From positions 1 to 51,957 of the forward strand of contig LCKS01000003.1 in assembly GCA_001001555.1 (NCBI GenBank): 51,957 nucleotides of DNA. Reading direction: 5' to 3'. Position numbers and translations under genes: made by a program. Of the stretch, positions 36,327 through 39,043 are shown piece after piece; the stretch's first letter is position 1, and each line of letters starts with the position of its first letter. The notes below the pieces were generated by a model. It was not told the origin of the DNA, made no database searches, and was given only the letters and a program-made list of their open reading frames with translations. The stretch is from Candidatus Amesbacteria bacterium GW2011_GWC2_45_19. Lineage in GTDB: Bacteria; Patescibacteriota; Microgenomatia; CAZETR01; Amesbacteraceae.

Positions 36327-36331
36327 GTTGG

Positions 36332-36403
36332 TCGGAGACCAGGGAATTGAACCCTGCACCTCCCGGTCCCAAACCGGGCGTTCTACCGATGAACTAGTCT
36401 CCG
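36332..36403 (-). tRNA. tRNA-Pro(TGG)
   Basis: CGGAGACTAGTTCATCGGTAGAACGCCCGGTTTGGGACCGGG...GTCTCCG. Confidence 0.93.
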
Positions 36404-36492
36404 GTGCTGTATTCTAAAGATAGTTCGAACGCATTTCGCCGCCTGCGGTGGCGAGGAGCCAGCGTAGCAAATCGCGGCTCCGCCGCGCCGAT
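36403..36492. repeat. IR90 left copy
   Basis: Perfect reverse complement of 37263-37352. Confidence 0.97.
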
Positions 36493-36524
36493 GACAATTT
36501 CAAGTTTTTCTTTGGCGGCAAATT

Positions 36525-37175
36525 CTATTTTAGAAATTTAAAAGTCGAAAGTATTTTATGAAAAACTGCTTTACTTTCAGAAACAACAGGTTGAAGTTCA
36601 AATGTTACTACTCCACCGTCAGGATGAGGAATCCAAACACTTGCTTTAATCTGCATGTTTTGTACTTCTTTCCCTTCTTTCGTAATCCTTGTAAATGGAA
36701 CGGCGATACCCCAATCAATCATCGAATTAACTCCACCTATCTCGGAGGATTCGCACCTCGGAACATCGTTCGGATAGGCACCGCAATAGGTAATCCCCAT
36801 TACATTCAATTGAGCTTGAGGGATATAACCAAGTGTTATCCAAAATGTTTTGTCTGCAGATTTAGCAATAAGTGGATCGTTTCTATATTCTTCCTTTATT
36901 GGATATCCAACAACAAAAGTTGTATCGCCTTCCATTCGCGAAGGCTCCAATGGGTCTGGTGGATACAGAAACTCATATCTAAGCGTGGAGTCTCTCTGTG
37001 TTTTCCAAGTCGCAATTTCGTCAGACTGTATGGACACCTGAGACTGTTTATTTATTTGATTTTGAGTAGTGGTTGGATCCGATCTCTTTGTCACAAAGAG
37101 ATAACCAATTATACCAGCGAACAAAACAATAATTACAACCAACGCTATTATATTTATAATCTTCTTTTGATTCAT
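36525..37175 (-). CDS. Membrane-anchored hypothetical cargo protein
   Basis: N-terminal TM IINIIALVVIIVLFAGIIGYLFV; 216 aa. Confidence 0.65.
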   Translation of the reverse strand: MNQKKIINIIALVVIIVLFAGIIGYLFVTKRSDPTTTQNQINKQSQVSIQSDEIATWKTQRDSTLRYEFLYPPDPLEPSRMEGDTTFVVGYPIKEEYRNDPLIAKSADKTFWITLGYIPQAQLNVMGITYCGAYPNDVPRCESSEIGGVNSMIDWGIAVPFTRITKEGKEVQNMQIKASVWIPHPDGGVVTFELQPVVSESKAVFHKILSTFKFLK

Positions 37176-37262
37176 ATGTTTGATACCATTATGATTAAAA
37201 AATTTTCTTTTCCCAAAATATGGTTCGAGCCGATGTTTTTAACAGGTTCTTTGGCAGTTTTT

Positions 37263-37352
37263 ATCGGCGCGGCGGAGCCGCGATTTGCTACGCTGGCTCC
37301 TCGCCACCGCAGGCGGCGAAATGCGTTCGAACTATCTTTAGAATACAGCACC
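37263..37352. repeat. IR90 right copy
   Basis: Perfect reverse complement of 36403-36492. Confidence 0.97.
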
Positions 37353-37445
37353 AGTAAGGAATTTGCAAGCGGTTTCGGTTCGCCTCGCTTTGCTCGGCGA
37401 CCAAATTGTAAGGAATTTTGGGCGAAAAAATCAGTTGGCGATTTC
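37348..37445. repeat. IR98 left copy
   Basis: Perfect reverse complement of 38844-38941. Confidence 0.97.
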
Positions 37446-37480
37446 ATTCTGGGAAAAGAAAATTTTTTAATCAAATCAAT

Positions 37481-39043
37481 ATGAAATACTTTATTTATGC
37501 TCGCAAGAGCACAGAAGAAGATGACCGTCAGGTCTTATCCATTGAAGCTCAACTTGTTGAGCTCAAAGAATTTGCCGCCAAAGAAAAACTTGAAATTGTC
37601 GCATCGCTTTGCGAGGCAAAAACTGCCAAAGAACCTGGACGAATAAAATTCGCAGAAATGTTGTCAATGATTGAAAAAGGCAAGGCAGACGGAATAATTT
37701 CGTGGCACCCCGACAGATTAGCAAGGAATAGCGTAGATGGCGGAAAGATAATCTATTTTGTAGATTGCGGCTTGATTAAGTCCCTCAAATTTCCCACTTT
37801 TTGGTTTGAGCCAACGCCGCAAGGACTTTTTATGCTCAACATCGCTTTTGGCCAATCAAAATATTTTGTAGATAATTTGCGAGAGAATGTAAAAAGGGGT
37901 TTGAGGCAGAAAATCAGAAATGGCGTTTGGCCCGGCTGGGCGCCAGTAGGTTATCTCAACAATCCTAAAACTCGCTTAATTGATATTGACCGAGAAAAAT
38001 CGGGTAAGGTAAGAAAACTTTTCGAGCTTTATTCCACCGGCGGATATACTCTAAAATCTCTCGCAAATTGGTGCAAAGAAAAAGGGTTGCGTGGAAATCT
38101 TGGAAAGGAAATCGCGATCGGCAACATTCAAAAGATTCTACAAAATATTTTCTACATTGGTTTGATGAAATATCGTAGGGAAATTTTTGAGGGACAACAC
38201 GAACCGTTAATTTTAAAGAAACTTTTTGATAAATGCCAAGAAGTGATGAGTAAACGCGGCAAAGTGCAAGAAGTGAGAAAACACCACTTCGCTTTTCTTG
38301 GCTTACTCAAATGTCCTTCCTGCGGTTGTTCAATCACTGGAGAGAGGCAGAAAGGGCATAACTATTATCGTTGCACCAAAAAGAAAGGGCCATGCCAAGA
38401 AAAGCACTATTTGAGAGAAGAAGCACTAACAGAGCAAATTAAAACATTCCTTCAAAAAGTTTCTTTGTCGAGCCAAGACACCGAGAAAGTTTTGGCGGCG
38501 TTAGACGCAGAACAGGAAAAAGCGAGAGAGGACGCGCAAAACGAGGTGGTAAATCTCAAAGAGGAATTAGCGAGTGTAGAAACGAAGTTAGCAAGGCTCC
38601 TCGATATTTATTTGGCAGACGCTTTATCCACAGAAGAATACGCCGCCAAAAAACAAAGTTTACTTTCACAAAAAGTGTCGTTGAGTGAAAAAATAACCGA
38701 CTTTGAGACAAAAGGTCTGTCTTGGCTCGAACCGGCTCGTGGGTTCGTAAAATCCTTAAATCAAGCCGCTAATCTCATTCAAACAGATACTCTTTCCGAA
38801 TTGCCAACATTTCTTAAAAACATCGGCTCGAACCATATTTTACGAAATCGCCAACTGATTTTTTCGCCCAAAATTCCTTACAATTTGGTCGCCGAGCAAA
38901 GCGAGGCGAACCGAAACCGCTTGCAAATTCCTTACTGGTGCCGGGAGCGAGACTCGAACTCGCACAGTCCAATGGACTGCGGGCTCTTAAGGCCCGTGTG
39001 TCTGCCATTCCACCACCCCGGCTGGTGCAATTGTTTGAACTAG
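37481..39043 (+). CDS. Large serine recombinase; true C-terminus uncertain because the ORF reads through the antisense of tRNA-Leu
   Basis: MKYFIYARKSTEEDDRQVLSIEAQL...GIISWHPDRLARNSVDGG; Zn ribbon CPSCGCSITGERQKGHNYYRCTKKKGPCQEKHYLREE. Confidence 0.92.
   Translation: MKYFIYARKSTEEDDRQVLSIEAQLVELKEFAAKEKLEIVASLCEAKTAKEPGRIKFAEMLSMIEKGKADGIISWHPDRLARNSVDGGKIIYFVDCGLIKSLKFPTFWFEPTPQGLFMLNIAFGQSKYFVDNLRENVKRGLRQKIRNGVWPGWAPVGYLNNPKTRLIDIDREKSGKVRKLFELYSTGGYTLKSLANWCKEKGLRGNLGKEIAIGNIQKILQNIFYIGLMKYRREIFEGQHEPLILKKLFDKCQEVMSKRGKVQEVRKHHFAFLGLLKCPSCGCSITGERQKGHNYYRCTKKKGPCQEKHYLREEALTEQIKTFLQKVSLSSQDTEKVLAALDAEQEKAREDAQNEVVNLKEELASVETKLARLLDIYLADALSTEEYAAKKQSLLSQKVSLSEKITDFETKGLSWLEPARGFVKSLNQAANLIQTDTLSELPTFLKNIGSNHILRNRQLIFSPKIPYNLVAEQSEANRNRLQIPYWCRERDSNSHSPMDCGLLRPVCLPFHHPGWCNCLN
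38844..38941. repeat. IR98 right copy, ending in the tRNA-Leu 3' end
   Basis: Perfect reverse complement of 37348-37445. Confidence 0.97.
38936..39022 (-). tRNA. tRNA-Leu(TAA), followed by CCA (38936-38938)
   Basis: GCCGGGGTGGTGGAATGGCAGACACACGGGCCTTAAGAGCCCG...TCCCGGCACCA. Confidence 0.92.

Follow-up and report, generated by a model that had tools for sequence, protein, structure and literature searches.

An attP located within an element's own gene is known from the SSV1-type archaeal integrases and from intP/intX of myxophage Mx8, and integration-dependent immunity is a property of some mycobacteriophages. All of these examples use tyrosine recombinases, and in each of them integration splits or alters the 3' end of the driving gene. 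To our knowledge, none is accompanied by an inverted spare of the lost 3' end. The element analyzed here encodes a serine recombinase. It lies within a stretch of 51,957 nucleotides (referred to as the window) from Candidatus Amesbacteria bacterium GW2011_GWC2_45_19 (contig LCKS01000003.1, positions 1 to 51,957) and is present as a single copy in this genome (814 kb, 21 contigs, 96% estimated completeness). We propose, with moderate confidence, that it is an integrative gene-cassette element harboring attP in its own recombinase gene, and that an inverted copy of this region provides a spare 3' end and a second attP.

Two modules bounded by inverted repeats

The left end of the element adjoins the 5' end of tRNA-Pro(TGG) (36329–36403, minus strand; ARAGORN and Rfam). 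The right end completes the 3' end of tRNA-Leu(TAA) (38936–39022, minus strand; ARAGORN), which is the integration target, with an offset (−5) that is identical in relatives. Both ends share the core GGTGC, and the element sits at a defined target. The left arm, L (36403–36492, plus strand, including the core), is the exact reverse complement of a second copy, L' (37263–37352, minus strand; 90 bp, 100% identity). Likewise, R' (37348–37445, minus strand) is the exact reverse complement of the right arm, R (38844–38941, plus strand, including the core), over 98 bp. The earlier note on this DNA had given the same coordinates, with perfect arms of 93 and 85 bp in addition to GGTGC; these lengths are correct because both repeat pairs share the 5-bp core. 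Perfect identity at such lengths excludes chance for both pairs. L' and R' meet at an internal inverted attP (37288–37445, minus strand; core GCACC at 37348–37352).

Self-comparison of the window revealed that four more inverted pairs link the two halves, all of them missed previously. Block C1 within the recombinase gene (37567–37600, plus strand) has an inverted copy, c1' (36493–36526, minus strand; 100% identity), at the inner edge of L, where it is conserved in relatives. Block C2 (37618–37637, plus strand), separated from C1 by a hairpin (37601–37617, plus strand), is copied as c2' (37243–37262, minus strand; 100%). Block D (38814–38841, plus strand), which adjoins R, is copied as d' (37209–37242, minus strand; 94% to 38814–38847). 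Block E, the leader ahead of the recombinase start codon (37446–37473, plus strand), is copied as e' (37192–37219, minus strand; 96%) upstream of the cargo start codon; d' and c2' are also located in the cargo leader. On the plus strand, the left half therefore reads core-L-c1'-[cargo, minus strand]-e'-d'-c2'-L'-core and the right half core-R'-E-[recombinase, enclosing C1-hairpin-C2 close to its 5' end and D close to its 3' end]-R-core-tRNA. This order implies two modules with separate terminal inverted repeats, of about 90 bp for the cargo module and 98 bp for the recombinase module, and places the inverted attP at their seam. The element is thus made of two abutting modules in opposite orientation, the cargo lying between L and L' and the recombinase between R' and R. 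Nested insertion, which the earlier note had considered as an origin of the internal junction, is not needed, since the junction is the meeting point of two modules bounded by inverted repeats.

Relatives were sought by scanning one genome per species, and 80 were collected, most of them labelled as Patescibacteria; the few labelled as other phyla may be mis-binned. Of 380 genomes sampled from the phylum, 116 contained recombinases related at E ≤ 1e-60. The inverted attP-like junction inside an integrated serine-recombinase element, the central claim of the earlier note, was confirmed and recurs widely: among relatives with enough flank, R/R' was present in 52 of 61 and L/L' in 40 of 50, counts that do not represent independent events as the elements are related to each other. 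The arms were usually 90–105 bp in length and mostly 97–100% identical within an element, and differed much between elements. The inverted copy was kept by recombinases only 45–50% identical, some of them in single-contig genomes (G148 and G179). It was entirely absent from some relatives, and L/L' was not found in many distant elements within the DNA examined. Dozens of unrelated genomes of ultra-small bacteria share the layout, each with a different passenger gene. Two other loci were observed during this survey. The window's own genome contains a remnant of another related recombinase, corresponding to residues 413–479 (G000:C4:22086-22289). In L022, a second, diverged recombinase module (116–1793), with its own inverted repeats of about 126 bp, is located at a tRNA-Lys and directly precedes the start of another composite element.

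The cargo gene of the window (36525–37175, minus strand) encodes a protein of 216 aa with a predicted N-terminal membrane anchor and no match in Pfam or NCBIfam. Elements usually carried one small cargo gene, and these genes were highly diverse. Ten cargo proteins, picked for looking recognizable, were searched against Pfam and matched Na/Ca exchanger, sodium:solute symporter, NAD(P)H-hydrate dehydratase, SAICAR synthetase, dihydroorotate dehydrogenase, HisG, methyltransferase, RDD, HAD hydrolase, and LigT-like phosphoesterase. Many other cargoes, including that of the window, are short membrane-anchored proteins of unknown function. A common N-terminus resembling MNQKGFANIxLIVVIV was observed in the window cargo and in the otherwise unrelated cargo proteins of L010, L011, L020, L059, and L086; it is probably a membrane anchor or a signal.

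The recombinase 3' end and the tRNA target

The recombinase gene (37481–38941, plus strand) comprises 487 codons within the element, without a stop. Its product matched the Pfam domains Resolvase, Recombinase, and Zn_ribbon_recom above gathering scores. The nearest named relatives were CcrB, CcrA, CcrC, and XisF of NCBIfam and the A118 integrase structure, all far below family cut-offs. The open reading frame (37418–39043) continues past the element through antisense tRNA-Leu, so that the integrated recombinase of the window has a tail beginning with RERDSNSHSP. The frame was free of stop codons before the R end in 43 of 44 relatives, and integrated copies therefore finish in antisense-tRNA or other host codons. 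Annotated recombinases in these genomes typically have RxxSNxxP-like tails, which are probably artefacts created when integration brings in antisense-tRNA codons.

Read across the excised R-core-L junction, the frame enters L, encodes (C/S)IL(K/E)(I/L)(V/A)RTxF, and soon reaches a stop. In the window, this tail (CILKIVRTHFAACGGEEPA followed by a stop) is encoded by positions 36408–36467 of L, and the rebuilt frame, consisting of the recombinase and the L tail, is 506 aa long plus a stop; the inverted copy holds the same codons. R accordingly encodes the last ~33 codons of the recombinase, and L the conserved tail and the stop. Since the frame runs on across R-core-L into the conserved tail, attP is located inside the recombinase gene: the attP core lies within the coding frame, and the C-terminus changes on integration, the tail being swapped for host codons.

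The variation of L among relatives was then considered in the recombinase frame. L was in phase with R in 37 of 40 cases. In the recombinase frame, 36 of 36 L arms stayed open over 18 codons or more, as opposed to 6% and 31% for the other two forward frames. The entropy of the tail at codon positions 1, 2, and 3 was 0.60, 0.29, and 0.97, respectively. The ratio of synonymous to nonsynonymous codon variants was 53:47, compared with 16:82, 11:82, 9:91, 24:69, and 7:91 in the other five frames. L thus encodes a C-terminal tail under protein-level selection. The RTxF motif followed by an early stop was found in many recombinases only ~45–55% identical, and distant recombinases displayed similar tails at the R/L junction (..LFEKIRTSFRENR*, ..LMDEIRTFFQNNPDSE*, and ..LLEKVRTFYQQNPDAD*, where the asterisk marks the stop). 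In still more distant recombinases, the gene likewise runs into antisense tRNA, which suggests that attP was located at the 3' end of the gene before the spare copy arose. We infer that the internal inverted copy is a silent spare of the 3' end of the recombinase gene, R' holding the last ~33 codons and L' the tail and the stop.

Among relatives, the R end meets the 3' end of tRNAs of 13 isotypes at the same offset. The 3' end of the recombinase gene always faced the tRNA (39:0), all resolvable tRNA junctions being in the truncated state, and the D copy of the cargo module ran in the reverse direction relative to the recombinase in every case (50:0). On both counts, no flipped integrated form was found among the relatives, and no free circle was seen in the sequences examined. 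The suggestion of the earlier note that the locus may be an invertible switch still offers the best functional reading, on grounds other than those available to the note: the inverted copy is a spare gene end because attP overlaps the 3' end of the recombinase gene; however, only one orientation was found, and switching is inferred.

The empty site predicted previously, an attB formed by a near-abutting tRNA-Leu/tRNA-Pro pair, was not recovered in that form. In the congeneric genome G005, which lacks the element, the tRNAs follow in the same order (Pro, Leu-TAA, Val, Leu, Leu, Phe, Gly), but tRNA-Pro and tRNA-Leu do not abut: 415 bp of unrelated DNA separate them at the locus of the element (L153 1169-1582). 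A search of the family did not find the exact attB. Variant junctions were observed at a few loci. In L057 (3799–5520), a lone recombinase module is joined at both R ends to 3' sequence resembling that of tRNA-Ala, as though a second tRNA had been targeted through the internal attP. In L020, L031, and L046, the sequence just beyond the R end is no tRNA and instead resembles the L arm of another element (..TCGAACCTATTTT..), which points to insertion into other elements or beside them.

Blocks common to both modules

An unbiased comparison of the recombinase gene with the upstream half of the elements revealed only four duplicated stretches besides R. The blocks are short (20–29 nt) and sharply bounded, with median lengths of 27 nt for E, 29 for C1, 20 for C2, and 27 for D, and median identities of 97–100%. 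C1 ended at nucleotide 120 of the gene in 41 of 51 elements, and C2 started at nucleotide 138 in 38 of 47. These borders are flush with the 17-nt hairpin, the stem of which persists through sequence change and is kept in relatives beyond codon choice (mean stem of 6.7 bp versus 4.1 bp with synonymous codons). Conservation of C1 and D extends to the codon level (entropy of 0.25 and 0.33, respectively, versus 1.14 elsewhere). In the distant relative L136, a block-hairpin-block frame was found at the C-terminal end of the gene instead, indicating that the frame is kept rather than particular codons.

In 48 elements, the cargo copies matched their own recombinase gene better than in any of 2000 permutations. 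Protein-binding sites alone were rejected as an explanation, since the cargo copies track wobble and amino-acid changes of their own recombinase, which such sites do not easily explain. A conserved RNA was also rejected: there was no Rfam match except for the tRNAs, and no structure common to the cargo blocks emerged on folding. Pairing over long range along the whole strand remains speculative, since it would be pseudoknotted given the order of the blocks. Candidate roles are recombination homology, pairing of the modules, and cis sites homogenized by conversion. In L032, L061, L068, and L036, junctions are located exactly at blocks, which suggests that recombination takes place there. L032 (1138–3300) and L061 (3950–5344) are simple elements without the inverted copy, and their N-terminally truncated recombinases begin exactly at C1 or C2, as expected from recombination at blocks.

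Proposed working, alternatives, and known systems

In the proposed mechanism, the element's own large serine recombinase would recombine it into the 3' ends of tRNA genes. Integration via the first attP swaps the conserved tail for antisense-tRNA or other host codons, leaving the truncated form seen in chromosomes. Recombination between R and R', i.e. inversion of the module, would put the recombinase beside L' and restore the enzyme of 506 aa; leader E, which sits within the recombinase module, would move with the gene. Integration via the second attP would, as an alternative route, likewise join the recombinase to L'. The presence of only the truncated state in chromosomes fits a stable form and is no proof of switching, as it may result from selection or from the mode of integration. 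Alternatively, the swapped tail might change the direction of the reaction, to excision instead of integration, rather than disable the enzyme. The four blocks are left unexplained by the spare-end proposal. A broader version that includes them is put forward tentatively: the elements could form a phylum-wide, integron-like serine-recombinase cassette system in which insertion disables the element's own integrase, the inverted spare tail lets inversion re-enable it, and the blocks couple the modules by pairing or recombination.

The internal junction could instead be the seam of a cassette array, in which modules bounded by inverted repeats and built on a common frame were joined by the recombinase, the spare end being a by-product of shared arms. 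Such arrays exist. L139 (G236:C39, 1–2770) harbors three cargo cassettes in one orientation, each organized as C2-D-E-gene-C1-palindrome, with no recombinase within the 4 kb examined; L053 has two cargo units ahead of a single recombinase module; and L057, mentioned above, has only a recombinase module, flanked at its two R ends by tRNA 3' sequence. The very diverse cargo genes and the identical circular order of E, C1, C2, and D in the two modules point in the same direction. We nevertheless regard the array seam as a somewhat unlikely explanation, as it accounts neither for the protein-coding constraint on L in the recombinase frame nor for the constant orientation of the elements. That the inverted copy is a functionless remnant, inherited from an ancestral double integration or inverted dimer and maintained as identical through gene conversion, is improbable: near identity of L/L' and R/R' within elements and the rearranged L032, L061, L068, and L036, whose block junctions suggest homologous recombination on repeats, would agree with it, but the copy is kept with precise borders in most relatives across the phylum, and deletion derivatives without it, such as L054, exist only as a minority. 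A plain tandem dimer with a flipped center was rejected, as the center is inverted in nearly all relatives and the halves hold different genes. Assembly chimerism, raised by the earlier note, has a negligible probability: repeats of this size can mislead assemblers and the metagenome-assembled genome is in 21 contigs, but the relatives refute it, dozens of genomes assembled independently, single-contig ones among them, having the same anatomy while differing in tRNA and cargo.

Little is known of gene gain in streamlined, presumably host-dependent bacteria, and in this family of elements the genes that are moved singly differ widely in function. If true, self-truncation of an integrase that keeps an inverted spare end would represent a new mode of directional control over integration. 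The blocks common to the modules constitute a clear, testable puzzle, and recombinases using many tRNA 3' ends may be useful as genome-integration tools.

No description of such an element was found in the literature searched, the coverage of which leaves out most subscription journals. A viral origin was rejected, with only two partial matches in viral contigs and no virion gene in the 2.5-kb element. Plasmid homologues were less than 60% identical (24–29% among the matches listed). Large serine recombinase elements, including those with the staphylococcal cassette chromosome (Ccr) recombinases, have the same order of domains (Resolvase, Recombinase, zinc ribbon). In contrast to them, the elements described here carry one small cargo gene as a rule, target tRNA 3' ends, have attP inside the recombinase gene with an inverted second attP, and contain blocks common to both modules. 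Hin/Gin switches and the yeast 2-micron circle also have inverted repeats around a recombinase gene, and the predicted circle would hold two inverted identical recombination sites. By contrast, no flipped form was seen here, and the attP-like sites would act by rebuilding the end of a gene instead of turning a promoter around. Integrons likewise combine diverse single genes, a standard frame, palindromic recombination sites, and arrays, of which L139 and L053 are examples here, but they rely on the tyrosine recombinase IntI and attC sites. The present elements have arrays of diverse cassettes without IntI or attC, use a serine recombinase and inverted-repeat ends of 90–100 bp, and their recombinase shares the frame with the cargo. 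The element fits none of these systems fully: it belongs with the serine recombinases by its domains, with the own-gene attP systems by its gene end, and is integron-like by its cargo.
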